IMG/VR virus record: IMGVR_UViG_3300046170_000450
Span: 22,912 to 86,911 of that record
DNA length: 64,000 bases
Source: a virus
Direction: 5' to 3' (one strand)
Position numbers and translations under genes: made by a program. Below are positions 20,811 to 62,663 of this stretch, one piece after another. Under the pieces are notes generated by a model. It did not search any database. It saw nothing but the letters and a program-made list of their open reading frames with translations, and was not told the origin of the DNA. How positions within the stretch are numbered: the stretch's first letter is position 1; every line of letters starts with the position of its first letter.

Positions 20811-20817
20811 AATAAAA

Positions 20818-20892: not shown

Positions 20893-20899
20893 TTAAAGG

Positions 20900-20982: not shown

Positions 20983-20990
20983 AAAAAAAG

Positions 20991-21068: not shown

Positions 21069-21076
21069 ATAAAAAA

Positions 21077-21162: not shown

Positions 21163-21169
21163 TTAAAAA

Positions 21170-21257
21170 TGGCAGAGAGAGTGGGATTTGAACCCACGGA
21201 TGCTTTCACATCAACAGTTTTCAAGACTGCCGCCTTAAGCCGCTCAGCCATCTCTCT
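21170..21257 (-). tRNA. tRNA-Ser (TGA)
   Basis: Type II, loop CTTGAAA, long variable arm, encoded CCA. It is the second serine tRNA in the window. Confidence 0.93.
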
Positions 21258-21262
21258 AAAAA

Positions 21263-21339
21263 TGGAGGTCACACTCGGATTTGAACCGAGAAAGGCTGAT
21301 TACAAATCAGCTGTTTTGCCAATTAAAACTATGCGACCT
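21263..21339 (-). tRNA. tRNA-Thr (TGT)
   Basis: Acceptor AGGTCGC/TGTGACCT region, loop TTTGTAA in stem CTGAT/ATCAG, encoded CCA. Confidence 0.92.
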
Positions 21340-21342
21340 AAG

Positions 21343-21416
21343 TACCCCTACACGGATTCGAACCGTGGTTGACGCGATGAAAACGCGGTGTCCTAACCAG
21401 ACTAGACGATAGGGGC
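21343..21416 (-). tRNA. tRNA-Glu (TTC)
   Basis: GCCCCTA/TAGGGGT acceptor, glutamate-type D arm TCGTCTAG, loop TTTTCAT, T arm GGTTCGAATCC. CCA is not encoded. Confidence 0.9.
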
Positions 21417-21421
21417 TTAAA

Positions 21422-21493
21422 TGGTTGCAGGGGCAGGAATTGAACCTGCTCACGAAGCTTATGAGACTCCGTTGGCTACCTAACCTCCCTACA
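21422..21493 (-). tRNA. tRNA with CAT anticodon (Met or Ile2)
   Basis: TGTAGGG/CCCTGCA acceptor, loop CTCATAA in stem GGAGT/GCTTC, T arm GGTTCAATTCC, encoded CCA. It is not initiator-like because positions 1 and 72 pair. Confidence 0.88.
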
Positions 21494-24077: not shown

Positions 24078-24115
24078 AATTTTGTTCCTTGTCTGTTGAA
24101 GATTTACAATAAAAG

Positions 24116-24121
24116 TTACAC
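24116..24121 (-). promoter_or_regulatory. GTGTAA late element before fibre B
   Basis: ATTAAGTGTAACTTT on the - strand, 38 nt upstream of the ATG at 24077, which is longer than usual. Confidence 0.5.
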
Positions 24122-24142
24122 TTAATAATTAAAATTTGTTTA

Positions 24143-25474: not shown

Positions 25475-25477
25475 ACA

Positions 25478-35773: not shown

Positions 35774-37712
35774 AAGAAAATATACGAAAAAATCTAATTA
35801 TTGGAACAAATTTCAAAAGGTCTCTAACGAAGCGTCTGCGACCCAACAGGATGTAGAGCCCGCAACAATGGGCGAGGCCTATCACGTTTCTCACGGGTCG
35901 TATAATCGATCTGGTTCTATTAGCAACTTGTCGTCCTCTAGCACATCTACGCGAATTAATAGATCCTCCGTTACGAGTCCACTTAATAAATTTAGTCAAA
36001 TTAGGGGCGGGCTTTTACCTTATGAAATTTCTTCTGACGGAATCAATGTAAGAGAGGCGATTGAGCTTTGCCAAAAAGCTTATGCAAATGTTCCGATCTT
36101 TAGAAATACTATCGACATGATGTCTGAGTTCGCAAACTCGGAATTGTATCTAGAGGGAGGCAACGCAACATCTAGAAACTTTTTTGAAAAACTATTAGAC
36201 AGAATCAAAATTTGGGATTTAAAAGATCAATACTTTAGGGAATACTATAGAAGTGGAAATATTTTCTTGTATCGCATTGATGGTAAATTTAGCTTAGATG
36301 ACTACAAAAAGTTTTCGCAAAATGTGTCCGAAGGGCCTTCTCTAAATAAATTTCCTCTTAAATATGTCGTATTGAACCCCTTTGAAATTGTAGCTAAGCG
36401 CAGCACCGTATTTAACACGAAGGATGGAGCTTATGCAAAAATTCTTTCCGAGTTCGACATGGAAAGATTAGCTAACCCCAAAAATGATTACGATCAAGCA
36501 GTCTTTGATGCGCTAGAACCAGAAGTTCAACAGCAAATCAGGGATGGAGCATACTTTAAAGATGGTTTAAAAATTAACCTAAAGAACGATAAAATTTCTT
36601 ACAGCTTTTATAAAAAGCAAGATTACGAACCATTCGCTATTCCATTTGGCTATCCTGTTCTTGAAGACATTAACGCCAAGATGGAAATGAAGAAAATGGA
36701 CCAAGCGATCATGAGAACCGTTGAAAATGTTATTCTAATGATCACGATGGGTGCCGAACCAGACAAGGGGGGCATTAACCCAAACAATGTAAAAGCGATG
36801 CAAAAACTTTTCCAAAATGAATCTGTCGGTAGGGTTTTAGTTTCTGACTATACCACAAAGGCAGACTTTGTTATCCCAGATATCAACAAGGTTGTTGGGC
36901 CAGGAAAATATGAAGTTATTAATAAAGACATTAAGGAAGGGTTGCAAAATATCATTCTTAATGACGACAAATATAATGGCGCTCAAATTAAAGCTCGTGT
37001 ATTTTTGGACAGGCTCAAAGAAGCTCGTGAAGCTTTTATTCAAGATTTTCTACAACCAGAAATTAGACGCATAGCTAAAGATTTAGGATTCAGATCATAC
37101 CCGACTGTTAAGTTTAAAGATATAGATTTGCGTGATGAAGTTCAACTTATGAGAGTCGCTACAAGGCTTATGGAGTTGGGCGTTATGACTGCAGAACAAG
37201 GTATGGATTTATTTCACACTGGAAGGTTTCCCCTTGCTGAAGAGCTGGAAGGAGCGCAAGAAAAGTTCGTGGAGCAAAGAGAAAAAGGTTACTTTAATCC
37301 AGTAGTTGGAGGAGTTCCGATGATTGAACCCGATGAAGAATCCAACGAGCAAAAAAAGAAGCCAGATGGTGGAATGGCTGGAAGGCCAGAGGGTTCTAAG
37401 GATCAATTCTCAAGAGAAAATATTCAAGGCACGATTTATGAAGTGGAAGCGCTAAGCTCTATCGCAAAAGAAAAAATGTTAGAAAAGCTTGATTCAGAAT
37501 CATTAAGCGAAGATCAAGAAAAAATGCTGAGCAAGCTATGCGAATCTGTTGTTTGTGCTTCAGAAAAAGAAAATTGGCAGGAAACAATTATTTCTTGTGT
37601 AAATGATTTTGCGCAGATTGAAAGACTGGGAACCCTGAACGGTGTTTTTGAAATTTCAGACGCTCATAAATTAGAAGTTTATCCATCAGCAATATTATAT
37701 CACTCAAAATGA
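35766..37712 (+). CDS. portal protein
   Basis: A 648-residue protein in the right place (after large terminase, before the capsid protease-like gene). It has features of portals: a Ser/Thr-rich disordered start, a wing of mixed alpha/beta, a helical clip and stem (IKEGLQNIILNDDKYNGAQI ... ARVFLDRLKEAREAFIQDFL), and an acidic C-terminus with a Met/Lys-rich helix bundle. It forms the dodecameric DNA channel and docking site for terminase. It overlaps the next gene by 4 nt. Confidence 0.75.
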   Translation: MAKRKYTKKSNYWNKFQKVSNEASATQQDVEPATMGEAYHVSHGSYNRSGSISNLSSSSTSTRINRSSVTSPLNKFSQIRGGLLPYEISSDGINVREAIELCQKAYANVPIFRNTIDMMSEFANSELYLEGGNATSRNFFEKLLDRIKIWDLKDQYFREYYRSGNIFLYRIDGKFSLDDYKKFSQNVSEGPSLNKFPLKYVVLNPFEIVAKRSTVFNTKDGAYAKILSEFDMERLANPKNDYDQAVFDALEPEVQQQIRDGAYFKDGLKINLKNDKISYSFYKKQDYEPFAIPFGYPVLEDINAKMEMKKMDQAIMRTVENVILMITMGAEPDKGGINPNNVKAMQKLFQNESVGRVLVSDYTTKADFVIPDINKVVGPGKYEVINKDIKEGLQNIILNDDKYNGAQIKARVFLDRLKEAREAFIQDFLQPEIRRIAKDLGFRSYPTVKFKDIDLRDEVQLMRVATRLMELGVMTAEQGMDLFHTGRFPLAEELEGAQEKFVEQREKGYFNPVVGGVPMIEPDEESNEQKKKPDGGMAGRPEGSKDQFSRENIQGTIYEVEALSSIAKEKMLEKLDSESLSEDQEKMLSKLCESVVCASEKENWQETIISCVNDFAQIERLGTLNGVFEISDAHKLEVYPSAILYHSK

Positions 37713-38178
37713 AAGAAATCAAAAATCCCCTAGAAATGAGCGTAGACCGCTCCAACGGCAATATAGAGATATCTATTGCGAAAAAATACAGCAAAACTGA
37801 AGAAGCTATGTACAAGTCATACATGAATATTTGCTCTATGGATGACAAAGCCTTAGTTGATACTTCTGGTATGGACGAAGAGTCTACGGCCAAAAGTTGT
37901 GGAATGCAATACGATAAAATGAGGGCAATGATGAATGAAGTCGGAGAAGGGGGATTGACTGAAAACCAAAAAAAGCTTCCCTAAACCTTTGCAAAAAGCC
38001 ATTTTAGAAAAAATGAAAAAAGAAGGAAAGGCTTTCCGAATCCGATGAAAAGAATTTCAAGCCTCATATGATGTATGATCCAAAAACTGGCAAAAGCTAC
38101 GAAGCAAAAACCTACAAAGATCATATGGATATGAAAAAAATGGGCTATACCCACGAGGATCCCAAGAAGAATGCATAA
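37709..38178 (+). pseudogene. frameshifted small gene between portal and protease
   Basis: An acidic protein starts MKEIKNPLEMSVDRSNGN and runs to about residue 90, where an A7 run shifts the frame (near 37970). The continuation KPLQKAILEKMKKEGKAF shifts again near 38040. A third segment, ESDEKNFKPHMMYDPKTGK to MGYTHEDPKKNA, ends at 38178. The three pieces make one natural protein of about 155 residues, so two indels are present. Sequencing error in A runs is the likeliest cause; recent decay is possible. Identity unknown, but the layout suggests a small head-assembly protein. Confidence 0.55.
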
Positions 38179-39004
38179 GTACACAGCAAAGTTCGATTTT
38201 GAAATTAAAGCCTGCGAAGAAATTTCAGGCATTAATGTAAGTAAGGCTAATATTGAAAATTTAAGAGAGTTGATACCAACCTCTGTAGATTTAGAAAAGA
38301 ATATTGACTTGATGGGCGTGGCATTTAACGCTGCGGTTGTTAACGAGTTTAATAAGAATGGCGATGGGATTGATACAAAAACAGCAATCGATTCAGTTCA
38401 GCAGTTTATTCATAAACCAACAAATATCGAGCATAACAAGAAAAAAGTTGTTGGTCATATTGTAAATGCTGGCTTTAGCGATTACTCTGATAGCTCTATC
38501 TTGATTAATGTTGATGAAAACGAAAAAGATGCATTTAATATCGCTTTGGGTGCTGTGGTATATAAGACCGTAGACAAAGAATTTTTTGAAATACTAGAGA
38601 AAAGTACCGACCCAAAAAACAAAATGCACAATACGGTTTCTGCGAGTTGGGAAATTGGGTTTAGCGAATATAAAATCGCAGTAGGCAGTAAGAATCTCAA
38701 GGACGCAGAAATTATTTCTGATCCCGATCAAGTAAGGGAAATGAAAGGGATGCTGAGAGCCTTTGGAGGCAAAGGGAAGACCGAAGATGGTCGTCCAGTC
38801 TACCGACTCATCACTGGTCAAGTTTATCCCCTGGGCATAGGATTTACTATGAAGCCAGCTGCAAATGTTAAGGGTGTAATCAGTCAAGAGCACAAGCTCG
38901 ATGAACCCAAAAACAAAAACTCTAATCAAGGGACAAGCCTCACAATTAGAAAAAACGTCAAAGAAAATTTCACAAAAATTAAAAAATACTGTAAACAATA
39001 CTAA
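38171..39004 (+). CDS. probable prohead protease-like protein
   Basis: The 277-residue protein contains FIHKPTNIEHNKKKVVGHIV (about residues 77-96) and downstream MHNTVSASWEIGFSEYKI, as in phage capsid maturation proteases and related proteins of the 'H.PTNIEH....VVGHI' type. The start overlaps the preceding gene. The C-terminus is lysine-rich. It is immediately followed by a scaffold-like gene, the usual head-gene order. Catalytic residues cannot be assigned with certainty, so the role is likely rather than proven. Confidence 0.6.
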   Translation: MHKYTAKFDFEIKACEEISGINVSKANIENLRELIPTSVDLEKNIDLMGVAFNAAVVNEFNKNGDGIDTKTAIDSVQQFIHKPTNIEHNKKKVVGHIVNAGFSDYSDSSILINVDENEKDAFNIALGAVVYKTVDKEFFEILEKSTDPKNKMHNTVSASWEIGFSEYKIAVGSKNLKDAEIISDPDQVREMKGMLRAFGGKGKTEDGRPVYRLITGQVYPLGIGFTMKPAANVKGVISQEHKLDEPKNKNSNQGTSLTIRKNVKENFTKIKKYCKQY

Positions 39005-39008
39005 AATT

Positions 39009-39713
39009 ATGGAACTAGAAACTCTACTATCAGAATTAAAAGACTCTCTTGCGGAAAAGAAATTTTCTGAAGAAGCTGTCGCTGGCATGACTTCGACATT
39101 TGCCGAAGCCATTAAACAAAAAGATGATGAGTACAAAGCTTCTCTTGAAGCTGCGGAACAAGAGAAGGCTGAAATCGCTTCTGCGAGAGAAGAGCTTCAA
39201 GCTTCCGTAGAGGCTATCAAGGAGGAACTTAAAGCTGCTCAAGAGCGCATCGAATCTTTCGAGGCGGAAAAGAAGGCTGAAGAAGCAGTTGCTCGCTTCA
39301 ATGCTCGTATGGAAGAAATTGATTCCATTTACGATCTTGCAGAAAGTGATAGCTCATTTATTGCAGAAAAGATTAAGGGTCTTGATGACACTGAAGAGTC
39401 TTTTGCATCATTTAAGGATGAGCTTACTATTTTCTGGGCATCAAAAAACAAGGAAGCTAAAGCAAAACAAGAAGAAGCTATCGCCGCTCGCGTCGAAGCT
39501 GAAATCGAAAAGCGCCTCAACACAGCAGAAGCATCAGAAGCTACTGAAGCTAAAGAAGAAGCAGTTGCTGAAGAAGTAGACGTTGAAGAAGCTCTTGAAA
39601 ATGCAGAAGCTACCGAAGAAGCTCTTCCTAACAATAATGAAGCCCAAGCTTCAAATAAAACTTTTAAGGATAAGTTCGCTGCTGCGTTTAGCCGTGAAAA
39701 TATTCTTGGATAA
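39009..39713 (+). CDS. scaffold-like protein
   Basis: The ATG at 39009 is chosen because it lies 4 nt past the previous stop. The 234-residue product is nearly all helical and acidic (KQKDDEYKASLEAAEQEKAE, EEELKAAQERIESFEAEKKA), with Ala/Glu-rich repeats and a basic C-terminal end (NKTFKDKFAAAFSRENILG) typical of capsid-binding scaffold tails. It would guide procapsid assembly and then be removed by the protease. Confidence 0.75.
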   Translation: MELETLLSELKDSLAEKKFSEEAVAGMTSTFAEAIKQKDDEYKASLEAAEQEKAEIASAREELQASVEAIKEELKAAQERIESFEAEKKAEEAVARFNARMEEIDSIYDLAESDSSFIAEKIKGLDDTEESFASFKDELTIFWASKNKEAKAKQEEAIAARVEAEIEKRLNTAEASEATEAKEEAVAEEVDVEEALENAEATEEALPNNNEAQASNKTFKDKFAAAFSRENILG

Positions 39714-44574: not shown

Positions 44575-45422
44575 TTAAGAACGAGGAAACCTATTTGCAG
44601 AAACCTCAAAATCTATAAATCCGATTTTTAAATTTCCAGGTATTATTCCTTGTTTTTTTTCTGAAAATTTAGAGACCGTCACATCTTCTATGTAATAAGG
44701 ATTTGCAGTTAAATAAGTATTTGCTAAATTTGTATAATTATATAAACCGTTTTTAATATCACCATATTCGGTTGAGGGGTGTTTAGAAAATGGTATTTTG
44801 GAGATAATCTTTCTGGAGGAATCTGCAAATATAGATAAAGCTCCATCAAGTTGATAAGAATTTTCAGCTAAAACGATAGCTTTAACGATATTTGTTGTTT
44901 TTTCTTCTCCGCCAAAGGCGAAACCTTCATTTCTCATATATTCGCAATTTAAAAATATAGCTGGAGCCATTTGATCGTATGGATTAACTCCAGTTTCTGT
45001 TTTTGCGTATCTGCTATTTAATTCAAATTTGTTTTCTAAAATTAAATCTTCTTCAGTTTCGTTCGTTAAATAAATATTAAAATCTTTTACGGCAAAACTT
45101 CCAGTAATAGTATTGTTTGTTCCAAAATTACCACCTGTTTCAATGATTCTTCCGTTTCAAAATCAAAATAATTCCATCGTTTCTGCCGCTACCCATAAGA
45201 GATGATGGTATTATTGGATTTGTGTCTCCATTTATTGAAGAATCGTTTACCCCATTGCTTATATGGGCTTGAATAAGATTTGTACTCATTCGGGAGTCTG
45301 GTATCATCAGAATAATAAAAAGATCCTGTTTGGTTGGAATAAGCCTCTCCCTTCTGAAGGAGCTCGTGGTCGAACCAAAGCATGAAACTTGTCATGAGTT
45401 CGTGTTGATACTGTGGTTTCAT
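44575..45422 (-). pseudogene. frameshifted virion gene near the tail-tube gene
   Basis: The start MKPQYQHELMTSFMLWFDHE and the C-terminal 131 residues (MAPAIFLNCEYMRNEG to SANRFPRS) read well, but the frame changes near 45250 and near 45155. The intermediate frame reads GVNDSSINGDTNPIIPSSL. Upstream of the C-terminal part the frame continues through SFAVKDFNIYLTNETEEDLI. Together they make one protein of about 280 residues, probably a head-tail connector or tail terminator. At least two indels are needed. Confidence 0.6.
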
Positions 45423-46827: not shown

Positions 46828-48508
46828 ATGGAAAATATTTACGAATTTACATTAAACAAAAAAGTAAAAAAGCAGGTAGAGAAAACAAGAAAAACAAAAG
46901 ACGGCGAAGAGGAAACAGTTCTTTCTAGCCGTACCGTGAATTCTCCTGTTAAATTTATTATCAAAAAACCCACAAGAAGGGTTGCTGACGAAGCTGAACT
47001 TTTTTATTCAATTGAGTTGAGTAAGGCATCAAGATGGGCATCGTCACAAAAGCAATGCTTATTAAAAAGTATGCTGATAATGGAGGAGCTTATCAGAAGA
47101 AGAGTCCAAGCACTTTTAAAGTCTTTGAAAGAGCTTCAATGATTTAGAAAACGAGTACAAGTTAGTGTTAGCTACAAAAAACAAAGCAGAAAAGAAAAGT
47201 CGAAGAATTCGAACATTAAAATATTGTACCTAAGAAGAGAATTGCAAGATCTTGAATCTTCTTTACAATCTGTTTATCAACATACCGCCGATGCAAAAGC
47301 GGAAAAAAACTTTTGCTTTGGTATGCTATTAATCTTATCTAAATCTTCGAAGACGAAGGAGAGGAAGATTTTTTAAGGATGGACTTTGAAGAAAAGTTAG
47401 AAGATTTTATGAAAAATACGAAGCTGACGAAGGTTTTGATCTTGAAGCTGCTCAAAAATTTGCTAAAGTAGTTGGGTATTGGTTTTATAACCAAGACCGC
47501 AAGAGAAAAAATATAGAAAGTTCATCGAAGATGGTGGGCAATGATAAAAATTTAGAAATAGTTTCAGAAATATTGCAAGGAGTTACTGTTGTAGATAGCT
47601 CCTTTGGTTCTTTATATTTTAGACACCTTTCTCAAGTTCAACAAAGAGAGGCTATTTCAGAGTCTAAGATTTTTGAAAAAGAAGCCGCCTCCAAGGGGCT
47701 GTTGTCAAGAGAACAGTCGCTAGAGGAGATAATCCAGCAAGAGATGTGGTCGGAAGAAAACGAGAAACAAATCAAAGATCTGAATACGGAAATAGAAAAT
47801 TTAAAAAAAATAAATTCTCAAGTATTTTTGCCATCAAAGAAAAAAGAAATAGAAAAAAACCTTAAGGAAAAACAAAACATTTTGTTTTCAATGGAGTCGG
47901 AAAAAGAAGAGTTGCTGGGACTGACTGTTGAAAAGTACTCCAACAATAAAATACAAAAAAATATTGTAAGCAAAATCTTGTTTTATGATAGGGAGTTCAA
48001 GAAAAGCGTTTTTGATGACCTGTATGTAAATGAAGCCTTTAAAGAGGTGGAGATATATAAAATGCAAAAAGATTTTTTTGAAAAATTTAACGACACAAAC
48101 ATTTCCACCGCAGTTTTGAGTGATTACTTTTCTATGTATTTACCGTTTTGTGAAGATGTTCTGGGCGTTTTTGGAAAACCGCTTAGAGATTTAACAAGTT
48201 ACCAATTGAAGCTTATTTCGTTTGGTAGATATTTTTTAAATATATTTAAAAACACAACAAAAGAGATCCCCGAAAATATAGCAAAAGATCCAGAACTTTT
48301 AATTAGCTTTTATCAAAACCAAAGGGAGGACTCAAGGAAACAGAGCTCTACTTCGGGCGACGGCGGATCAACCTATTTCGGCGCAACAAAAGAAGATATT
48401 GAAGCAATCAAGAGAGAAGACGAAAATGCGGTTGATTTGTCCGATGAAATAAAGAAAAAGGGAGGATCTCTTAATATGAAGCAAATGATGGAATTGCACG
48501 GACTTTAG
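46828..48508 (+). pseudogene. frameshifted tail-assembly-chaperone-like gene
   Basis: MENIYEFTLNKKVKKQVEKT and an RRVADEAELFYSIELSK segment begin in one frame. After about 47030 the natural continuation (GIKMGIVTKAMLIKKYADNG) is in another frame. Further changes occur near 47130, 47200 and 47300-47410. From about 47410 a continuous frame (YEKYEADEGFDLEAAQKFAK) runs to 48508, including a 325-codon stretch that would start at 47531. The parts suggest one long protein of about 560 residues. The 'G...KAML.KKYAD..G' motif fits tail-assembly chaperones that bind the tape measure. Many indels cluster here, so error is suspected. Confidence 0.6.
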
Positions 48509-48523: not shown

Positions 48524-51500
48524 ATGGCGGTAACAGTAGGAGTTAATTTAGAACCAAATTCCAAAAAGGTTGAGGCGGCTTTAGCTAGGATTCAAGCCCA
48601 AGCTAAGGGTATTGATTTTGGTGGAGGGGCGAGGTCAATTGAAAAACTATCCAGACCGCTGGGAAAGATAACTGGACAAGCCACAGAGTTTCAAAAATCA
48701 CTTGAAGCTTCTAATGCTCGTGTTTTGGCTTTCGGTGCCTCCGTTGCTGTTATTAATAAGCTTTCCCAGGCCTTTGGTGCGCTTGTTGAAAACACAATTA
48801 GAGTAGAAGCGACTTTTGCTAAAATTAACACCATTCTTGGGGGAACTCAAAAACAATTAGAGCAGTTTGGAAATGGTATTTTTGCTGTAGCGCAAAAAAC
48901 CGCAACATCTTTTGATCAGGTCGCTGAAGGTGCTTTAGAATTAGCACGTCAAGGTTTGAGTGTTGAGGAATCCCTTTCTCGTGTTGAGACTTCTCTAAAA
49001 CTCGTTCGTGTTGCTGGTATTGATTCGCAACAAGCTGTAGCTGGTCTTACCGCCGCAATCAAGGGTTTTGAGGGCGCTGGTTTAACCGTTGCTCAGATCG
49101 CAGACAAACTTGCGGAGGTTGATACCAAGTTTGCTGTATCTACTGAAGACTTAATTAATGGGCTGGAACGTGCATCTGCTTCGGCTCGTGTTGCTGGGGT
49201 TTCTTTTGATGAGCTTTTGGCTGTTGTGACAACCGTTCAGGAAAGAACTCAGCGTGGTGGCGCTGTTATTGGTAATGCTTTTAAGACTATTTTTGCAAGA
49301 CTTGGCAGAACGGATACTTTAGTAGCTCTTGAAGAGCTTGGCATCAGTGTTTTAGATACTGAAGGCAATGTCAGGTCTGCGATACCTCTTTTTACCGAAT
49401 TGGCTTTTAAGTTGGATGAGCTTGGATTAAAAAGCATTCAGGCTGGAGACGTTATACAGAAAGTCGCTGGTGTTCGTCAGCGTGATATTTTAATTAGCTT
49501 GGTTGAAGATTTAACTTCAGGACAAAGTCAATTTGCTAACGCCTTAAATGTTTCGGCTGGAGCGGCTGGATCTCTGGATAGAAAAAATGCCCAATTAAAC
49601 GATACGCTTGAAGCGTTGATTAATAATTTAACGGTTGGCGCACAGAAACTTTCTTCAGTAATCGGAGAACTTGGCTTTGCAGACGCAGCAAAAGATATTT
49701 TAAAAGTTTTCTCTTCAGTGGTTAATGGTATTACTGATTTGCTTCAGGGGGATTCTATAGGTTCTAAATTTGCCCAGGGACTTATCAAGGGAATAGGTGG
49801 CATCTTGACTGGACCAGGTTTGGCTTTAATCAGTGCTATATTTGTCAAACTATTTGTGGACTTGGCAAAGTTCGGGGCAAGTTCATTGAGAAGCTTGCTT
49901 GGTATTAACAAGGCAGCAGAGGCTCAAAAATCGCTACAACAGTCCGTTCTTCAAACACTTTTACAAAACGAAAATATTCAAAGAGAAATTCTTGCTCTTG
50001 AGGGTAACAAAGTTGCACAAGAACAATTACTTTTAAAAATTTATAATCAACAGGCAGCTGCTTTAGCTAGAGTACAAAAGGCTGCCGCAACCGTAACTCC
50101 TGGACTTTTTAAGGGGGGCTTTAGGGGCGGCGAAAGCGGCGTAGGAAGAACTGGCAGAGGCGCTAGTGGTTATGTCGCCGCTGAAGCTCGTGATGTATCT
50201 AGAGGAGTTGGTGGAGCGCCCGCAAGCTCTAAGGTAGTCTCGATTCCAAACTTTGCTTTTGGTGGCGGTAAGCGAGGTACAATGGTTGCCAACACTAGCG
50301 AGTATTTTGTTCCTAATTACGCTGGCGGTGGAGATGCAATATTTAATCGTGACATGGTTCGCTCTGGCGGTCTTCCATCTGGCGCAAGAAAGATAAATGC
50401 AGCTGGTGGTTTTATACCTAATTTTGCAAAAAGAAATATAGGTAACTTCGGATTTCTCGTTCCAGAAAAAGGAGCTAAAAGACCACTAAAAGATTTTGAC
50501 GTTTCTTTGGGCGGAAAGAAAACAACATTAACTGGAGGAACTGTAAGAGGAATTGACCCGTCGCAAGCCAAAACAGTATCTGACCCAATAGAGGGTAGAA
50601 TTAAAAAATCAGTTATAGACTCTAGCACTGCATACGCTAATGAGTTACAGCCACTAGGAAGGTCTGTATCCAGAACAGATATCGAAAACGGATTTGGCAC
50701 AATAGCTGGGGCAAAAGGTGCTCTGCAGTCAGCTATAGGCGCAGCTTTTGAAGTGGGTATTACAAAATCTTTAGATTACAAGGCCGCACAAAGAGAAAAA
50801 GGCGGAGATTTTGATATTAGAGGAGGAGTTAATTTACCAAGAATACAAAAACTTTTTGGAATGCCCTCTTCGATGAGCATAGCTGATCTAAAGGTATCTG
50901 ACTCTGTAGGAAATACTGAAAGCTTTTACTCTAAAGTAATGAAAGAAATAGGAGCTGGGCCTTTTGGTGCGAGAGAGAAAAAAGCTAATGCTAGAAAATT
51001 AGCGGCAGCACAGCTTAGAAAAAAATATCCAGGATTTTACACAACCAAAGGACTATTAAAAACAAGAGGTATATCATCTTCGGATAAAAAAAGAATGCAA
51101 GATCTTGAAGAGAGAACGACAAATAAAATTTTTACTTCTAGGTTCGGAAATGCTTCTTCTGGTTATATTCCAAATTTCGCCATGTCGCCTCTTGACGATG
51201 CTATTGAAAGAGAAAAAGCCGCTGGCCTACCAATTAATCAAATAAGAATTAATCAAAGCGGAAAACTTCGTAGTGCCCAAAACCCAATGGGTCTTGCTGT
51301 TACCAATACTAGAGATGAGCCAACTGGTGCTATACCAAACTTTGCGAAACCTTTGAATGCAAGTAAATCAGGTTCGGGTGGAGAAGGTATGGGTGGCTCA
51401 GGGGGAGGGCTTTTTGCTTTGTTTGCTCTACAAGCAGCGCTAGGTGGATTAACCAACACTGTTGACGATAGCAACAAATCAGCCAAAAACTTTGGGGATG

Positions 51501-54127
51501 GTTTGTCAAGCTTTGTAAATACATTAATTGTTTTACAAGCTACTGGATTAGGACCACAGGGTCTTGGATCACTTAAAGGTGTTGGAAAATTTACAAATGT
51601 GTTAAAAAAATCCTTTGGAGGATTGAAAAGATTCCTTGGGCCCGTAGCTCTTGGACTTGGAGCGCTTGATGGAGTCTTAAAAGCAGGTGGTGCTGGAGGA
51701 ATAGTAGAAACATTTAAAACTTTAAAAGATTCGGCGACGGGCGATGGCCGAAGAAAAGCTGTAGCAGATATTGAAAGCAGTCAAATTAGAGCGCTAGAGC
51801 AAGGAAAGTTTAGTGGCTCTACAGATGAAGGCGTAACTGTGGCTAGGGGTCAGGTGGCAAAGTTTGAGCAGGGGGTCAGAGATGCAAAAATTGGAGTTAG
51901 AGTAAATCCAGAAGGCAGCTCCCTATTTGACCTTGATCGAAAATCTGCGATAAAAGATCTAGCAAGGCAAGAAAAGCTTTTAGAAAGAGCTAGAGAGCAA
52001 CTATCAAAAACAACTACTGATCTAGCGCAAAAAGAAGCAACGCAGGCAGAATTTAGATCTGGTGCAAGAATAACAAAAGAGCAAGCCGATACGCGTACTA
52101 AGGAATTTTTTGCTAGGAGAGGGGGCGATATAGAAGTTACGAAAGGATCAGCAAATTTAGAAGGTCAAAAAAAGCTACTAACAGAAACCAGTTTAATAGA
52201 AAAAGATAGAATTCAATCTCAAATACAATCTAACGATTTAATCGCTGAAATGGCGCTAGCCAGAAATGATAATTTGCAGACCTTGGCTCAAGAACTTATA
52301 GAAAGCGAAAAAGTTGGAGGAATAGAAAAAGAAAAATTAGAATCCGTCTTGGATAGCATTAACTTTAAAACCGATGAAGTGGCGATGTCTGAACAACTAG
52401 CGAAATCATTGGGAGTCGAACAGAGTGTAGCGAGAGGTATTTTAGAAAATGCTAGAGCAAAAAATGCAGTTTTAGAATCGGAGCATACCACAAAAACTAC
52501 CCTATTAAAACAAACTCAAGCGCTTGCGGCGCTTGAAGCCCAAATTGCTGAATCTAGAAGATTAGCTTCGAGAAATTTATCCAATGATCTTGGCCAAGCC
52601 CGCAGCGGAAGAGAACTAGGAACAATAAAAAGAGACGCGGGTATTAGGGGAAATAATTTTGAATTAAAATCTGGAGCAATAGGATCTGGTAGAGAAAGAG
52701 AAATAAAGTTTCTGAACGAACAAATGCGACTTGAAGAAGAACTTACCCAGTTGAAAGGAAGAGCTTCTGATTCAGAGACAACTTTTTTAAGTCTGAAGGC
52801 TCAGGCAGACGCTGGCAACTTGTCGATGCAAGACGAAAAATATCAAAATGCGGTAAATCAGCTTATAATCGATCAGGAGAGGCTTGATAAGCTTACACCT
52901 TTAATAGAGGCAGAAAAGCAATTAGCCCAATTTAGGGGCCAGCAAAGTGGCTTTAGCTTAGGTTTAGAAGAATTAGATTCGACAATATTAAGCTTTGAGG
53001 ATAAGCTTGGTAGAGAAATACCAGGACTATTTGCAGATAATTTAGGTACGGCAATTAAAGACGCTGTTACTGGAGCTGAAGATATAGGCGATGCTCTTTC
53101 AAAGGCTGGAGAAAGTTTCTTAGGCTACATTAGAGATGCATTTTTACAACAAGCAGCAAATCAGGCCACTAGCGCTATATTTGGCGGAATGGGAGGCGGT
53201 GGAGCCCCAGGCACGGGCGGAGGCTTAGTTAGCACTGTTACTGGAGTCGCTGGAGTCGCTGGAGCCGCTGGAGCCGCTGGAGCCGAGGGAGAAAAAAAGG
53301 GAGGGATCGGAGGATTTTTCTCTAATCTCTTCGGCGGAGGCAAAAAAGGCGGTGGCGCTTTAGGTGGCAGCCCAACAAATCCACTATTTGTTCAAGATGT
53401 AGCTAATGCCATAGGTGGAGGAGCTGCTACTGGTGCAGAAAAAGCGTTAGAGAATATAACTGGAAAAGAAGGAACAGAGCAGGAAGGCTTTTTTAGTAAA
53501 ATAAAAAGCGGATTTGGCGATTTATTAGGCGGTTTAAAAGATAAACTTGGTGGAATGTTCAGTGGACTAAAAGACAGTCTCGGCGGTTTGTTTGGTGGTG
53601 GCGCAGGTGGCGGCGGAATATTTAGTAGTCTTCTCGGCGGACTAGGTGGAATAGGAAGCGGGATTGGTGGAATATTTAGCAGTCTTTTGGGTGGTTTCAG
53701 CGGTGGCTTGGGCAGTTTATTCAGCTTCTTTAATACTGGCGGGCCAGTTGGCAGGGGAACAGATACAGTACCAGCAATGTTAACACCTGGAGAATTTGTA
53801 GTAAAGAAATCTGCAGTGGATAAATACGGAACAGGTTTTTTATCTAGTTTAAACAATGGAGTATTACCAATGCGAGGATTCCAAAACGGAGGATCTGTTT
53901 CTCCAGTCGCTGCAGAAGCTGGCGCTTCTGCGATGGGGGGAAACCAAATCAGCAATAACTCCGATTTTACTTTTAACATACAAGACAGTAAAGTCAGTCA
54001 AGAGGGAGGGCAAGGCTCTTCAGAAAACCAAAGGGAATTTGCTTCTAGAATTAGATCAGCAGTCACAACAGTGATACAAGAAGAGTCTCGGAGTGGAGGA
54101 AGTCTAAATTATTTATATAAGTCATAA
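48524..54127 (+). CDS. tape measure protein with an embedded nuclease-like domain
   Basis: The 1867-residue protein has the TP901-type tape measure start (about residues 50-330). A central region of IPNFA motifs follows, with a globular domain between them. A coiled-coil stretch (about 1090-1510), a Gly-rich low-complexity region and the end GRGTDTVPAMLTPGEFVVKK complete it. IPNFA-type motifs occur near residues 573, 596 (VPNYA), 630, 882 and 936. Between about 640 and 880 lies a domain with Glu743, Asp762/764 and Asp788-Leu-Lys790, compatible with a PD-(D/E)XK nuclease core. The tape measure sets tail length and is expelled into the host, so an enzyme here could be delivered; this is inference. 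Confidence 0.85.
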   Translation: MAVTVGVNLEPNSKKVEAALARIQAQAKGIDFGGGARSIEKLSRPLGKITGQATEFQKSLEASNARVLAFGASVAVINKLSQAFGALVENTIRVEATFAKINTILGGTQKQLEQFGNGIFAVAQKTATSFDQVAEGALELARQGLSVEESLSRVETSLKLVRVAGIDSQQAVAGLTAAIKGFEGAGLTVAQIADKLAEVDTKFAVSTEDLINGLERASASARVAGVSFDELLAVVTTVQERTQRGGAVIGNAFKTIFARLGRTDTLVALEELGISVLDTEGNVRSAIPLFTELAFKLDELGLKSIQAGDVIQKVAGVRQRDILISLVEDLTSGQSQFANALNVSAGAAGSLDRKNAQLNDTLEALINNLTVGAQKLSSVIGELGFADAAKDILKVFSSVVNGITDLLQGDSIGSKFAQGLIKGIGGILTGPGLALISAIFVKLFVDLAKFGASSLRSLLGINKAAEAQKSLQQSVLQTLLQNENIQREILALEGNKVAQEQLLLKIYNQQAAALARVQKAAATVTPGLFKGGFRGGESGVGRTGRGASGYVAAEARDVSRGVGGAPASSKVVSIPNFAFGGGKRGTMVANTSEYFVPNYAGGGDAIFNRDMVRSGGLPSGARKINAAGGFIPNFAKRNIGNFGFLVPEKGAKRPLKDFDVSLGGKKTTLTGGTVRGIDPSQAKTVSDPIEGRIKKSVIDSSTAYANELQPLGRSVSRTDIENGFGTIAGAKGALQSAIGAAFEVGITKSLDYKAAQREKGGDFDIRGGVNLPRIQKLFGMPSSMSIADLKVSDSVGNTESFYSKVMKEIGAGPFGAREKKANARKLAAAQLRKKYPGFYTTKGLLKTRGISSSDKKRMQDLEERTTNKIFTSRFGNASSGYIPNFAMSPLDDAIEREKAAGLPINQIRINQSGKLRSAQNPMGLAVTNTRDEPTGAIPNFAKPLNASKSGSGGEGMGGSGGGLFALFALQAALGGLTNTVDDSNKSAKNFGDGLSSFVNTLIVLQATGLGPQGLGSLKGVGKFTNVLKKSFGGLKRFLGPVALGLGALDGVLKAGGAGGIVETFKTLKDSATGDGRRKAVADIESSQIRALEQGKFSGSTDEGVTVARGQVAKFEQGVRDAKIGVRVNPEGSSLFDLDRKSAIKDLARQEKLLERAREQLSKTTTDLAQKEATQAEFRSGARITKEQADTRTKEFFARRGGDIEVTKGSANLEGQKKLLTETSLIEKDRIQSQIQSNDLIAEMALARNDNLQTLAQELIESEKVGGIEKEKLESVLDSINFKTDEVAMSEQLAKSLGVEQSVARGILENARAKNAVLESEHTTKTTLLKQTQALAALEAQIAESRRLASRNLSNDLGQARSGRELGTIKRDAGIRGNNFELKSGAIGSGREREIKFLNEQMRLEEELTQLKGRASDSETTFLSLKAQADAGNLSMQDEKYQNAVNQLIIDQERLDKLTPLIEAEKQLAQFRGQQSGFSLGLEELDSTILSFEDKLGREIPGLFADNLGTAIKDAVTGAEDIGDALSKAGESFLGYIRDAFLQQAANQATSAIFGGMGGGGAPGTGGGLVSTVTGVAGVAGAAGAAGAEGEKKGGIGGFFSNLFGGGKKGGGALGGSPTNPLFVQDVANAIGGGAATGAEKALENITGKEGTEQEGFFSKIKSGFGDLLGGLKDKLGGMFSGLKDSLGGLFGGGAGGGGIFSSLLGGLGGIGSGIGGIFSSLLGGFSGGLGSLFSFFNTGGPVGRGTDTVPAMLTPGEFVVKKSAVDKYGTGFLSSLNNGVLPMRGFQNGGSVSPVAAEAGASAMGGNQISNNSDFTFNIQDSKVSQEGGQGSSENQREFASRIRSAVTTVIQEESRSGGSLNYLYKS

Positions 54128-56200: not shown

Positions 56201-57324
56201 TGAGTGCGTCTAGATTTGTAAATAGATACGCGGATGTTTCCTTGTTTTATAGCGAGGATGAGTTTGATCAGCAAGAAATGAATAATGGCAGCGGTATGTT
56301 CTTCTTGCCAGGGGTACAAAGTTTTGATTTTGATTTTGGATCTAATTTAATTAGTAGTAAGGGTTCAGTGGGATCAAAAAAGAAGAATTTTATTTATTCA
56401 AATCAAGCCCCAGATGTCAATGTAAATCTATCTGTCCTTGAAAATTTTGAAACATTATTTAAGGATGTTTTTACTGGAGGCCAACTTCGTGAAGATTTAA
56501 ATCGGGGAAAAAACTTTTATTCTATTGTTGGTAGAGATGAAGAAAGAACTGTTCTTAGTAAATACGAGAGTTCCCTTTCAATAGGAAATTGTTTTCTTGA
56601 TTCTATAAAAATAAATCAAAAGATTGGCGGCATTTTAACCAGCGACTACTCATATGTTGGCAGTAATATAATTGCGCAAGAATATAGTGGGATAGACGGA
56701 AGATATTCATTAAGCAGTGGCAAGGCTCCATCTGTCAATTTAACTGGAGATCAACAACCAGTTGGTAATTTTGTATTTACTGGAGTTTATGACGAATTAA
56801 TAGAATCTAATTTTATGGGAGAATGGACGCCTGGATACAAGACTTATGTTAAAATAAGCGGAATAGGAACGGAGGATTCTTTCTTGATTAAGCCAGATAA
56901 TGTCCAATCTTTTGGTATAAATCTCGATTTTAACAGAAAAAGGATAAATTCCATAGATAAGTATTTTCCGATGGGAAGGGTGGCGACACCTCCATTTTTA
57001 GGAAAAATTTCTTTAAAAAATAAAGTTTCAGATATAGAAACCAATCATTCTTTATTAAATTTTTTAAAAAATTCAGAACAATACTATATTAGCATAAGTG
57101 GAGGAAAAATAAATGGAAAAAACTTCATGGTCAATATTTCTGGGGCAAGTTTGCAGTCCAAAAACCTCAGCAGCTCTATTTCATCAGAATTATCCGAAGA
57201 TGCAAATTTAATTTTTGGCGCGAATAATATAAACATATTAACTGGCACCTCTATTTACCTTTGGAATAAGAACAACGGAACTATTTTTAGCCATAATGAC
57301 TTTATTTGGAACAGTTTCGTGTAA
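56200..57324 (+). CDS. putative tail protein, paralogue 4 (374 aa)
   Basis: Similar in order to paralogue 3: GVQSFDFDFGSNLISSKGSV, FETLFKDVFTGGQLREDLNR, NLTGDQ, PGYKTYVKISGIGTEDSFLI and NVQSFGINLDFNRKRINSID. Tandem duplication explains both genes. The start shares one base with the upstream stop, and the stop contains the late element of the fibre gene. Confidence 0.55.
   Translation: MSASRFVNRYADVSLFYSEDEFDQQEMNNGSGMFFLPGVQSFDFDFGSNLISSKGSVGSKKKNFIYSNQAPDVNVNLSVLENFETLFKDVFTGGQLREDLNRGKNFYSIVGRDEERTVLSKYESSLSIGNCFLDSIKINQKIGGILTSDYSYVGSNIIAQEYSGIDGRYSLSSGKAPSVNLTGDQQPVGNFVFTGVYDELIESNFMGEWTPGYKTYVKISGIGTEDSFLIKPDNVQSFGINLDFNRKRINSIDKYFPMGRVATPPFLGKISLKNKVSDIETNHSLLNFLKNSEQYYISISGGKINGKNFMVNISGASLQSKNLSSSISSELSEDANLIFGANNINILTGTSIYLWNKNNGTIFSHNDFIWNSFV
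57319..57324 (+). promoter_or_regulatory. GTGTAA late element before the giant fibre
   Basis: TTCGTGTAAATAG: the last Val and stop codon of the upstream gene form the element, 8 nt before the ATG at 57333. Confidence 0.65.
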
Positions 57325-57332
57325 ATAGAATT

Positions 57333-60300
57333 ATGGCAGACCTTTACGGAAAAAGAATAGATTCTAGTTATATCTATATACTAAATTCAGACCCAAACAC
57401 TGCAATAGTAACAAATGGAGATGGGTCTAATGTAGATTGGGATGGAAACAAAATAGTATTAAAAACAGGTAATCAAGACATATCTGGAGTTAAAAATTTC
57501 AATTCTATACCAACTTATCAAGGTTTAGAGCTTGTTTATAAAAATAATCCGCTTTCTGGTTTGGGGGAGGGTCAGCTTCAAATGGCCCAAAATTCGCAAG
57601 GTTCTGTTATATTAGCTGGAAACATAAATACTTTAAGTGGGAATTATTCTGTTATATTAGCTGGCAATAATAATTCTCTAAATGGGGACCACTCCGCCAT
57701 TGGTGTCGGCACGTATAATCATTTAATAGGGAATAGCTCGCTTATATCCGCTGGCACTCAGAACTCTCTAAGTGGGAACTTTTCTTTTATTAGTGCTGGC
57801 GATGGAAATAGCCTTACTGGAAATTCATCTACTATAAATGGTGGAGTTGGAAATGATTTGATAGGTAATCAATCCTCTATATCGGCTGGCAGCCAAAACC
57901 AAATTTCTGGCAATAAATCTTTCATAGGAGCTGGACAAAATAATATAGTAAATTCTGATCGATCTGCAATTGCTGGAGGCGATGGCAATCAAGTACATTC
58001 TGATTTCGGCGGGATAATAGCGGGTACAAATAATACAATTACTGGCGAAGGTTCTGTAATTGCTGGTGGTCATATAAATTCTATAGACGGTCAGAAATCT
58101 GCTATTTTAGGCGGAGATAATAATGAAATAAAAACGGGAAATTATTCTACAATAGTTGGAGGCAAGGAAAATATCGTAAAAAATTCAACCCACTCTTCTC
58201 TTCTTGGCGGAGAAAACAACGAAATAAGTGGGTCTTCAAGTTCTCTTGTAGGTGGATCAAACAACAACATTTCTGGGCAAAAAAGTGTTATAGTTGGAGG
58301 AAGTGGGAACAATTTAGTTTCGGATAATGCTGTTCTTGTCGGCGGTAATTCAAATTTAGTAAAAAATTCACCAAGATCAACTTTAGGTGCGGGGCTATCT
58401 AATATAATTTCTGGTTCAAGTGGTAGTTTACTGGGGGCTGGAACCCAAAATCATTTAAATGCGTCGAACAATTCTTTCATAGGTGCTGGGTCTGAAAATA
58501 CATTCTCTAGCTCTCCCAGTTCTTTCATAGGAGCTGGCTCTGGAAATAATGTTTTAAATTCTAACAGTTCGTGGATAGGTGCTGGCGATAATCATTCTTT
58601 GATTAATTCAACTGGATCTTCTATTTTAGCTGGCGAAGAAAATGTTTTATCAGGGTCTAATAATTCTTCAAGTTCTGCTGGGACTGGAAATATAATTATA
58701 AGTTCAAATGAATCTTTACTGGGAGCTGGCAATCAAAATAAACTGAGTGGTTCTGCTAATTCTGCAATTGTAGGGGGCGGGTTTAATAAAATTAGCGGAT
58801 CAAGCGATTCTTCGATTGCCGCTGGAACTGGGAATCTAGTTCAGAACTCCAACCGATCTTCCATTGCCGCTGGCGACGAAAATTACATAAGCGGAAATTC
58901 TTCTTTCATCGGTGGAGGAAGCCGCAACAAGGTTTATGTCGAAAATGCGGCGATATTGGCGGGGCTTCAAAATATTGTGAGCGGAGAGGACTCCATTCTT
59001 GGAGGGGGTTTCTTAAATCAAGCCATCGGAAACAACTCTTCGATACTCGGCGGCAGAAACAATCTGGTCGGAGAAAACACTTCTTCCGCTTCTATTTTAG
59101 GCGGCAGAGATAATGAATTGAGAACTGGAAGCTACTCTTCCTTGCTCGGCGGGATAGAAAATGTAGTATCTGGCTCTTCCTCTTCTCTGCTCGGAGGTAG
59201 CAATAATACCCTTCACGGAGATAAGAGCGTTCTTGTCGGGGGTAGCGGAAATCAGTTAATTGGAGACGGAATCGTTCTAATGGGCGGCGAGTCCAATACC
59301 GCTTCTGGAAAATTCGTCACGCTTTTCGCTGGCGAAAATAATAAGGTGAGCGGCGTGGCTTCCACGGTCGTCGCTGGTAGAGAAAACTCCATAAAACTTT
59401 CGGACGATTCTTCTATCGGAGCGGGAACTGGGAATTTTATGCAAAATTCTCAAAGGTCCCACGTTGGCGCGGGCAAAGATAATACGTTTACAAATTCTCA
59501 AGACTCCTCGGTTGGAGCGGGATCAAATAATACGTTTACAAATTCTCAAGACTCCTCGGTTGGAGCGGGATCAAATAATACGTTTACAAATTCTCAAGAC
59601 TCCTCGGTTGGAGCAGGAATTGGAAATTTACTACAAAACTCTAACCAATCTTCCATTGCCGCTGGCTCGACAAATGTAATAGCGTCATCAACTGGATCTT
59701 TAGTTGGAGTAGGGGATGATAATACTATAACTGGTTCCACTTCTTCTGTTTTGCTCGGAGGGAAAACAAACAAAATACAAAACTCAACTCATTCCTCTTT
59801 AGTAGGAGGTAGATCTAATTATATTATTGGAACTGAGTCTTCCCTTGTAGGTGGCAATAATAATTCAATAAGTGGAGACAGAAGTGTATTAGTTGGGGGT
59901 TCAAATAATAATGTATTTGGTGACGAGACTATTTTAGTTGGCGGGCAAAATAACACCGCATCAGGTCTTTATGCTACCCTTTTTGGTGGGCAAGATAATA
60001 ATTTAACTGGAACTGGTGTAGCAATTCTTGCGGGAAGAAACAATGATGTCAAAGGTTCTTTAGATTCTTGCATTTCTGCTGGCAGAATAAACGTTGTGGA
60101 AGATTCTGAAAGATGTTCTATAGCGGCTGGCCGAGGTAATAATATTATTGACTCTAGTGATTCATTTATTGCTGGTGGAACTGGAAATTCTATTATTGAG
60201 TCAGATAATGGAGTTATTTTAACTCCAGATGGTTCTACGATCGATACAAATACCGACGTGACAATTAGTTTTACAACCGCAGATACTGGAAGGATCGAAG

Positions 60301-62663
60301 AAGTGGGTTTCGGCGCTCAGTTTACTAAGTTTCCATTTCAAGATGCCGACGCAATTAGAGAGTTCGATGTTAGTCCTGCACCTTGGTATACTTGGTCGGC
60401 TGTAGATGGTTTTGACAGAATTTCAGGCTACTGGTTTGAACAAAAAGCATTTGATGCCCCTGTTTATGCATCTATTTTAAATGGAATCGAAAATAAGGTT
60501 CAGTCTGATTTTTCTACTATTTTAAATGGATCTGGGAATGAGTTGGCTGGAGCGAACTCAATAGTAGCGGGCATAAACAATAAAGCTTCTGGGCACAATT
60601 CTTACATATTTGGTGGCACAGGCAATACGATTAATTTGAGTTTTTTAACTGGGTCGTCTTCAGAAAATTTAGATCAAGGATTTCTATATTTTGGCAGAGA
60701 CTATGAAAATTACAACACGATAATTAATGGGGAAAACAACGTCATAGGCTCAAACAAAGCTAGTGAGAGATTCGTTCTTTCCAATAATACAAATCTCGAA
60801 GCTGTACAAAACAAACATTCTCATATATTTGGAGGAGAAGAGAATAGTATAGATGGAATCGGCGGTTTTATATTAAATGGTAAAAGGAATGATATACATG
60901 CGGTGACTCATTCATTGAATGAAGAATTCAATATGCCTAGGACAAGTCGAAATCAACCCATTAATGATCCTTATATTCCAGAATTAGATGGCATATTCGA
61001 AGATGATTTTTTGCAGGATTTTAATGGGACGAGGGAGACTTGGGAAAGTCACTCTTCAATTTTTTCTTCAGTTAGGTGTAGCGTACATGGACAACTTCTA
61101 TCAATAAGCAATTCTGTAAATTCAAGCATAGAAAGCGGATATAGGGGCATTAATACTTCCTCATTTCAAGATGCAGGCAATTATCCAATATTTTGTAATA
61201 TCTCTAACAGTCTCGGCTCTTCGGTTAAAGCAGCACATTATTCTTCAATCTTCAATGGTATCGGAAATGAAATATCACAAAGCGGAACAAGAATTAAAAG
61301 TGCGAACTCAACTATTTTAAACGGAAACAGAAATAAAATATTAACTGAGGTGTCAGAGCTAGATGCAATAGATGTTGCTAACAACACCTACTCTACAATT
61401 TTAAATGGGCGAAATAATACTATTTATGGTAGAAGAAGTACTATTATAAATGGCACAGAAAATACTTTAACGGGTCGATCCAATTTAATTTTTGGAGAGG
61501 GTAATACTATTACAGATCAGGACAATTCTATCACTTACTCGGCACCCGATTTTAGCTTTGTTTTTGGTGAGGATAATCTTGTTAGTGGAGCCGCTTTTAC
61601 TACTCAGCTTTCAAAAGAGGATGGAAATTATGTATTCGGGAAAAGAAACCAACTTTTGAATTGTTCTCGTTCGTTTGTTGTGGGCGGCTATAAGGTTTTT
61701 AATCAAGGAGGTTTTCTTCTTGATGGCGACAACAACAAATTTATTTTATCTTATGATATTTTTTCTTTTAACAATGTCTTATCTTCGGTTTCTGGATCTC
61801 ACGACTCAGCAATAAATAATGTTTATTATTCAGATGTGGCTGGCGCAGTCAGTTCATCGTTATCAAATCTACATGGTTCTGATATTGTTAGCTTATCGAA
61901 TTCTTTCGCAAATAATTTAGTAAATTCTAATGCAAGATCCATATTTTCGTCTAACTTGAACGGCGTTGAATTTTCGCAGTTAAGCGGCTTAAACCGTTGC
62001 ACTATTTCTAATTTACGAAACAGCGACATAACTGACGCAAGTGATTCAAGAATTCAAGGAAATAATATCAATGTAGATAATGATTTAGATTACTCGGATA
62101 TTTTGGGCAACAATATTAATTTAACTGGAAGAGTTCGTGTAGAGAACTCAAGAATAATTGGGCAAGATATTGATTTTGTTAAGCTTGGTGGTACTGCTAC
62201 TTTTGTTGAATTTGGAAATTGTGATGTTTTAGGGTTCAACAATACATTGGCGGCGGTTGGAGGCAGCATTTCAAATTTATTAATCAGAGGTTACAATAAT
62301 AATGTGACGGGCTCTAGCGATGTTTTTGTGTTCGGTGATAGAGTCAATGTAAACAATTCAAGAAACTCTATTTTCTTTGGACAAGACATAGAATCAAGCG
62401 GACAAAGCACTTTCGTTTTTGGGGATAATATAGATTCTCAGCATGTGGCTGGGTCCGTAATAAAGGATAGTAAAACGACCGCAACACAATCCAAGGGAGA
62501 AGACACTCTTTTCTTGGATTTTGACCAAGGAACTTATATGAATGTGCCCTTATGGACTGGAGCAACAACTCCAGGTGTTGGTGGGCAGATCATGTACAGT
62601 GGCGACAATATGTATATTCACAATGGATCAAATTGGAGAGAAATAAACACCTCCGCTGTATAA
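57333..62663 (+). CDS. giant beta-roll tail fibre (1776 aa)
   Basis: The ATG at 57333 is chosen because it lies 8 nt after a GTGTAA element; an in-frame TTG upstream overlaps the previous gene. After an anchor-like N-terminus (about residues 1-85), about 1000 residues are a run of a 16-residue repeat with the pattern S-(I/L)-x-(A/G)-G-x-x-N-x-(I/L/V)-x-x-S. This strongly resembles the YadA-type left-handed beta-roll of trimeric adhesins. A non-repeat insert (about residues 965-1045, with a Trp-rich stretch) interrupts it. The C-terminus (LFLDFDQGTYMNVPLWTGAT, GGQIMYSGDNMYIHNGSNWR) is a typical fibre tip domain. It probably forms the long receptor-binding fibre. Confidence 0.75.
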   Translation: MADLYGKRIDSSYIYILNSDPNTAIVTNGDGSNVDWDGNKIVLKTGNQDISGVKNFNSIPTYQGLELVYKNNPLSGLGEGQLQMAQNSQGSVILAGNINTLSGNYSVILAGNNNSLNGDHSAIGVGTYNHLIGNSSLISAGTQNSLSGNFSFISAGDGNSLTGNSSTINGGVGNDLIGNQSSISAGSQNQISGNKSFIGAGQNNIVNSDRSAIAGGDGNQVHSDFGGIIAGTNNTITGEGSVIAGGHINSIDGQKSAILGGDNNEIKTGNYSTIVGGKENIVKNSTHSSLLGGENNEISGSSSSLVGGSNNNISGQKSVIVGGSGNNLVSDNAVLVGGNSNLVKNSPRSTLGAGLSNIISGSSGSLLGAGTQNHLNASNNSFIGAGSENTFSSSPSSFIGAGSGNNVLNSNSSWIGAGDNHSLINSTGSSILAGEENVLSGSNNSSSSAGTGNIIISSNESLLGAGNQNKLSGSANSAIVGGGFNKISGSSDSSIAAGTGNLVQNSNRSSIAAGDENYISGNSSFIGGGSRNKVYVENAAILAGLQNIVSGEDSILGGGFLNQAIGNNSSILGGRNNLVGENTSSASILGGRDNELRTGSYSSLLGGIENVVSGSSSSLLGGSNNTLHGDKSVLVGGSGNQLIGDGIVLMGGESNTASGKFVTLFAGENNKVSGVASTVVAGRENSIKLSDDSSIGAGTGNFMQNSQRSHVGAGKDNTFTNSQDSSVGAGSNNTFTNSQDSSVGAGSNNTFTNSQDSSVGAGIGNLLQNSNQSSIAAGSTNVIASSTGSLVGVGDDNTITGSTSSVLLGGKTNKIQNSTHSSLVGGRSNYIIGTESSLVGGNNNSISGDRSVLVGGSNNNVFGDETILVGGQNNTASGLYATLFGGQDNNLTGTGVAILAGRNNDVKGSLDSCISAGRINVVEDSERCSIAAGRGNNIIDSSDSFIAGGTGNSIIESDNGVILTPDGSTIDTNTDVTISFTTADTGRIEEVGFGAQFTKFPFQDADAIREFDVSPAPWYTWSAVDGFDRISGYWFEQKAFDAPVYASILNGIENKVQSDFSTILNGSGNELAGANSIVAGINNKASGHNSYIFGGTGNTINLSFLTGSSSENLDQGFLYFGRDYENYNTIINGENNVIGSNKASERFVLSNNTNLEAVQNKHSHIFGGEENSIDGIGGFILNGKRNDIHAVTHSLNEEFNMPRTSRNQPINDPYIPELDGIFEDDFLQDFNGTRETWESHSSIFSSVRCSVHGQLLSISNSVNSSIESGYRGINTSSFQDAGNYPIFCNISNSLGSSVKAAHYSSIFNGIGNEISQSGTRIKSANSTILNGNRNKILTEVSELDAIDVANNTYSTILNGRNNTIYGRRSTIINGTENTLTGRSNLIFGEGNTITDQDNSITYSAPDFSFVFGEDNLVSGAAFTTQLSKEDGNYVFGKRNQLLNCSRSFVVGGYKVFNQGGFLLDGDNNKFILSYDIFSFNNVLSSVSGSHDSAINNVYYSDVAGAVSSSLSNLHGSDIVSLSNSFANNLVNSNARSIFSSNLNGVEFSQLSGLNRCTISNLRNSDITDASDSRIQGNNINVDNDLDYSDILGNNINLTGRVRVENSRIIGQDIDFVKLGGTATFVEFGNCDVLGFNNTLAAVGGSISNLLIRGYNNNVTGSSDVFVFGDRVNVNNSRNSIFFGQDIESSGQSTFVFGDNIDSQHVAGSVIKDSKTTATQSKGEDTLFLDFDQGTYMNVPLWTGATTPGVGGQIMYSGDNMYIHNGSNWREINTSAV

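Follow-up and report, generated by a model that had tools for sequence, protein, structure and literature searches.

A putative PD-(D/E)XK-type nuclease module exchanged as a cassette between IPNFA motifs of phage tape measure proteins

The 64,000-nucleotide stretch of DNA analysed here (the window; positions 22,912 to 86,911 of IMG/VR record IMGVR_UViG_3300046170_000450, an uncultivated virus of 86.9 kb) encodes a tape measure protein (TMP) that carries, between two copies of a short motif reading IPNFA, a module with the conserved residues of a PD-(D/E)XK-type nuclease. With moderate confidence, we read this module as a polymorphic, metal-dependent nuclease that occupies a modular cargo region of the TMP and is delivered with the DNA, its target differing between phages. 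TMPs are usually viewed as rulers and as formers of the DNA channel, cell-wall hydrolases being their common extra, and they are ejected during DNA entry. The original prediction, made from the sequence alone, had placed a nuclease-like domain in a TMP between two IPNFA motifs. The nature of the host protein was borne out by a profile search, in which the open reading frame (ORF) matched PF10145 (E 1.2e-26) and 16 PHROG tape measure families (PHROG_4211, E 5e-46); a minor tail protein gene (phrog_14) adjoins on the downstream side, as expected of a tail-module position. The flanking motifs were found at aa 631 and 882, and E743, D762, D764, D788 and K790, the proposed core residues, lie exactly where they had been located.

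Seven distant relatives of the module were found in IMG/VR, each inside a giant TMP between IPNFA motifs. A DNA pattern for GFIPNFA retrieved at least 119 stretches of viral contigs; their motif-bearing ORFs number 118, the window's own included, and among the inter-motif segments of these ORFs one family—that of the focal module—predominates. Subfamily scans and a hidden Markov model (HMM) yielded 145 nonredundant domains as the basis of the residue counts (Table 1), which also cover the 54 sequences from which the HMM was built—picked partly by motif, so that the HMM leans towards them—and, among the remainder, many domains from later scans. Identity to the focal domain is mostly 14–35% in an alignment of 132 sequences, and all family members come from uncultivated virus contigs, save one on a short contig of a metagenome-assembled genome (MAG). 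Because E743, D764, D/E788, K790 and G739 are near-invariant among the 145 homologues, position 788 being acidic in every one of them (145/145), the residue pattern, as judged by conservation, is not a chance one. Four of the proposed core residues thus stand; D762, in contrast, is poorly kept (D in 23/145) and for this reason does not belong to the site, which the alignment defines as E743-D764-D788xK790. Nucleases acting on nucleic acids are the best-known bearers of the E-D-(D/E)xK signature.

The predicted structure places these residues in a plausible setting. AlphaFold modelling reached a pLDDT of 85.6 with 54 sequences and, for aa 633–813 with 132 sequences, a pLDDT of 91.5 and a pTM of 0.85. 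In the models, E743 lies within a long helix (aa 728–749), D764 immediately precedes a short strand, D788–K790 closes the strand formed by aa 786–789, and K804 is located on the next helix. The PD-(D/E)XK superfamily, whose core fold is alpha-beta-beta-beta-alpha-beta, likewise bears E-D-(D/E)xK on a helix and two strands, in that order, and then a helix carrying a conserved K/Q. Mean-field coupling on a shallow alignment (effective size 99) ranked first the pair I765–L789, which joins the direct successor of D764 to the middle position of DxK; A741–I765 and I677–A787 came further down the list, and pairs of near-invariant columns were set aside as artefacts. The couplings suggest that the E helix, the D strand and the DxK strand are mutually adjacent. 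Conservation, secondary structure and coupling together strongly support a PD-(D/E)XK-like core, as had been proposed, at the level of sequence and model, and the catalytic arrangement is supported; membership of the superfamily by fold is unproven, since the confident AlphaFold model has no Foldseek match in the PDB.

By sequence and predicted structure, the module belongs to no described family. Residues 629–892 had no counterpart among described families, PDB sequences or cultured phages; a search of 50,697 cultured phage records with the module and four members of other subfamilies returned no match, and a search of bacterial and archaeal genomes with one subfamily query matched the single short MAG contig and nothing else. 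The best PDB sequence matches were hemopexin-type lectins (over the FE...D stretch, E 0.001–0.016), which are taken as chance because these lectins are all-beta propellers and the AlphaFold model is helical at that stretch. Neither the nuclease family, nor TMPs of the IPNFA type, nor the IPNFA motif itself was found described in the open-access literature, subscription journals and preprints being mostly outside the scope of that search.

Comparison of related TMPs revealed that the module is replaced as a unit and not by gradual drift. The focal TMP and that of a relative, L006, are 91% identical in the core, 94% in the 65 residues before the motif and 82% in the 60 residues after it, and their modules share 25%. 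Where cores are 70–90% identical, modules have a median identity of 26% and both flanks one of 77%; among pairs with core identities of 90–98.5%, which like the other TMP pairs are not independent of one another, modules are less than 30% identical in 32, more than 60% in 24 and in between in five. Across 78 nonredundant pairs, similarity ends with the A that closes IPNFA or just past it (the last similar residue has a median position of 5 when I is numbered 0) and returns about five residues ahead of the next motif. This abrupt loss and resumption of similarity at the motifs identifies the module as an exchanged cassette. Whole modules have also been gained or lost at motif borders among close relatives (L145/L148, L222/L223 and L204/L289). 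The borders of the slots take the form (A)(A/S)xG[FY]IPNFA, and the density of IPN[FY] in these TMPs is 31 times that in the remaining ORFs at their loci, an upper estimate as many of the loci were gathered via the motif itself. IPNFA could anchor the module in the tail tube, provide a cleavage site or serve mainly as a recombination border by virtue of its conserved coding sequence. The segment between the last two IPNFA motifs of relatives is usually occupied by a small conserved module (ERExAAGxPxxQIRI...NPMGLAVTNTRDEPTG), which matches no known family and whose focal copy spans aa 887–936.

Other enzymes reside in the IPNFA slots of relatives. L274 harbors a CCA tRNA nucleotidyltransferase insert (PF01743, E 9e-15; PHROG_2244, E 8e-58; NF008137, E 1e-41) in addition to the nuclease module; this CCA enzyme (L274:8309-9718) is apparently complete and in frame within the TMP between IPNFA motifs, and an HD-like stretch can be seen in it by eye. 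L046 combines the nuclease with a GHKL/Hsp90-like ATPase (L046:5330-7042), whose Pfam match, at E 3.7e-5, lies just under the curated cut-off. GNAT-like inserts were recognised by motif at L067:1406-1939, L104:9908-10321 and aa 1546–1725 of the L283 TMP, and two of the 58 inserts that were scanned gave a Pfam GNAT match. By eye, further inserts resemble ADP-ribosyltransferases (ARTs; LYRG...), kinases (GSGAEASF) and HEXXH metallopeptidases (L045:7915-8547, L092:511-1263, L122 TMP aa 1139–1339 and L010 TMP aa 137–335); none of these ART-like, kinase-like or HEXXH inserts gave a profile match. The chances appear evenly balanced that IPNFA TMPs constitute a general cargo platform, in which motif-marked slots receive recombined enzyme modules—usually the new nuclease family, in other cases enzymes of tRNA repair, acetyltransferases, ATPases or, by eye, ART- or kinase-like domains—so as to equip each phage with its own early enzymes, with allele-specific targets diversifying in an arms race.

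How such a module might act can be outlined as follows. E743, D764, D788 and K790, with K804 in support, would constitute the catalytic residues of a nuclease that is the usual occupant of its slot and whose version is exchanged by recombination between related phages, both TMP flanks being near-identical. Since ejection of the TMP precedes or accompanies that of the DNA, the module would most likely reach the host interior early, entering the cytoplasm or the inner membrane at the start of infection. There it would cut a nucleic acid, which could be DNA of the host or of a rival element, or else an RNA or DNA that serves in defence, and phage-to-phage differences in target would drive the diversity of cassettes. 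The sequences themselves show that the catalytic site is conserved, that the cassette is exchanged with its borders at the motifs and that corresponding slots of relatives hold further enzymes; nuclease activity, delivery, target and any function of IPNFA as an anchor or cleavage site are what we infer. The precision of cassette swapping suggests a second task for the tail, as a vehicle for enzymes to be injected. The idea of a delivered effector gains support from this precise exchange, from the other enzymes in the same slots and from work on phage lambda, in which the TMP meets both inner-membrane and defence proteins in the course of injection: a ManZ fusion labels it by proximity, and the defence nuclease SNIPE contacts it (PMC13190303).

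Several known systems resemble the proposed one in part. Tme of the Streptomyces davawensis contractile injection system (PMC11126660) is a TMP-related protein with a demonstrated nuclease domain, which a tail-like machine delivers. In contrast to the focal protein, however, it is not a phage TMP, and its nuclease is C-terminal and EndA-like (DRGH and H-N-N motifs), is accompanied by DUF4157 and is not embedded between motifs; no DRGH occurs in the focal module, and the focal TMP gave no match to DUF4157 or to any other Pfam family above cut-off besides PF10145. Polyvalent proteins of phages and conjugative elements, also large virion-associated polypeptides, carry ARTs, kinases, GNATs, Pol-beta nucleotidyltransferases and peptidases into hosts (PMC5512222), a list that overlaps the modules seen in relatives of the focal TMP. 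Here, however, the carrier is a TMP—the term 'tape measure' was not found in PMC5512222—and a short repeated motif delimits its slots. While polyvalent proteins are defined by at least two unrelated enzyme domains per polypeptide, a combination present in L274 and L046, a single enzyme-like module was recognised in the focal TMP. Finally, TMPs with lytic transglycosylase or peptidase domains (YomI-type; PMC10194240) also contain an enzyme domain within the TMP, but these enzymes act on the cell wall, whereas the catalytic site of the focal module is of nuclease type, and the module moves between phages as a cassette. Taken together, TMP ejection, the SNIPE contact, Tme, the polyvalent proteins and cassette diversity point to an injected, target-specific nuclease as the likeliest role of the module.

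A number of results weigh against an injected nuclease of the PD-(D/E)XK type. No known nuclease was recovered from Pfam, PHROGs, PADLOC or PDB sequences, either with single sequences or with the 54- and 132-member alignments. The original prediction had looked to structure prediction and Foldseek for support and received none from them: neither AlphaFold model matched a PDB entry at E<=0.001, nuclease or other, and the first model had no confident match in BFVD. No strand is predicted between the E helix and D764, where the canonical one is expected, and the module, unlike described members of the superfamily, possesses an integral beta-rich N-terminal part; whether the acids cluster was assessed by sequence coupling alone. 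Moreover, a nuclease that leaves the virion alongside the phage's own DNA would have to be specific or controlled, and the upstream-gene test across the TMP set yielded no co-varying immunity gene. The last result would fit a nuclease acting on the phage's own DNA or in assembly or ejection, for example in processing genome ends or resolving DNA near the tail, as would the presence of the module in about 34 of the 44 complete motif-selected IPNFA TMPs (weak C-terminal matches discarded), a frequency in keeping with housekeeping. This explanation nevertheless seems unlikely to us, since about 10 of the 44 do without the module and such extreme allele exchange between near-identical TMPs is unusual for a housekeeping enzyme. 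It is likewise improbable that the module is a hydrolase or phosphodiesterase of new fold whose PD-(D/E)XK-like site serves a substrate that is not polymeric DNA, such as a nucleotide second messenger or tRNA; that the model, although of high confidence, matches no known nuclease by fold, and that sister slots hold a tRNA-repair enzyme and GNATs, is in line with such an activity, but the catalytic signature, with its nuclease associations, is not. Least probable is variation mainly for the evasion of host systems that recognise the TMP, with enzymatic activity secondary: SNIPE does sense TMPs during injection (PMC13190303) and a swapped cassette would alter the recognised surface, yet catalytic residues kept in 95–100% of homologues that have otherwise diverged to about 20% require selection for catalysis.

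Should the module prove to be an injected, target-specific nuclease, the tail lumen would represent a programmable protein-delivery compartment, a new nuclease family with a suggested early anti-host or anti-rival function would be added to those described, and nature would supply a design for loading phage tails with enzymes. The question of delivery becomes testable because the sister phages come close to a natural module-swap experiment.

Table 1. Features of the tape measure protein gene and its upstream neighbour (window coordinates; residue counts refer to the homologue set described in the text)
Feature	Position	Strand	Residues (aa)	Remarks
325-aa protein directly upstream of the TMP	47531..48508	+		Chaperone position; cognate-partner test not supportive
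TMP gene	48524..54127	+	1867 aa in total	Host of the cassette
PhageMin_Tail, conserved TMP domain	48887..49426	+	122-301	Pfam match (PF10145)
IPNFA motif	50243..50257	+	574-578	
VPNYA variant motif	50309..50323	+	596-600	
IPNFA motif, left cassette border	50414..50428	+	631-635	78 related-TMP pairs lose similarity at or just past the motif
PD-(D/E)XK-like nuclease module (putative)	50429..51154	+	636-877	Homologue family, AlphaFold model (aa 633-813), cassette exchange
G739-A-A-F-E743, helix with putative first catalytic acid	50738..50752	+	739-743	G 143/143; E 139/143 (+3 D)
D764, putative second catalytic acid	50813..50815	+	764	D 143/143; precedes short strand
D788-L-K790, (D/E)xK motif	50885..50893	+	788-790	788: D 103, E 42 of 145; K 144/145; strand end
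K804, conserved K/Q in following helix	50933..50935	+	804	K 138, Q 6 of 145
IPNFA motif, right cassette border	51167..51181	+	882-886	Swapped TMPs regain similarity ~5 residues ahead of the motif
Small conserved module	51182..51331	+	887-936	ERE...NPMGLAVTNTRDEPTG type; similar short segments in most relatives
Last IPNFA motif	51332..51346	+	937-941	

The gene directly upstream of the TMP was considered as a cognate immunity or chaperone gene. This was rejected, as over the full set identity of the upstream gene tracks that of the TMP core (rho 0.75) and not that of the module (rho 0.16), with counter-examples in both directions. When the window is compared with a sister phage (G001), the pair of genes that immediately precede the TMP (46828-48508) show 58–59% identity and other matched genes mostly 80–97%, which makes the upstream pair the most diverged save the TMP itself. 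Three genes that G001 encodes as single ORFs of 514, 282 and 245 aa are broken up in the window (37709-39713, 44575-45422 and 46828-47531), likely through assembly or sequencing indels, or frameshifts. Four minus-strand ORFs of 332–443 aa (21751-26476) have no match in the compared 60-kb stretch of G001 and represent a possible insertion. The window contains 12 tRNA genes, nine of which are clustered on the minus strand (20735-21493), one tRNA of the cluster bearing an unusual four-base anticodon call (ccat). Downstream of the TMP, a 1785-aa protein (57306-62663) consists of G-x-x-N-x-[IVL]-x-G/S-type repeats like those of trimeric adhesin heads and is probably a tail fibre.
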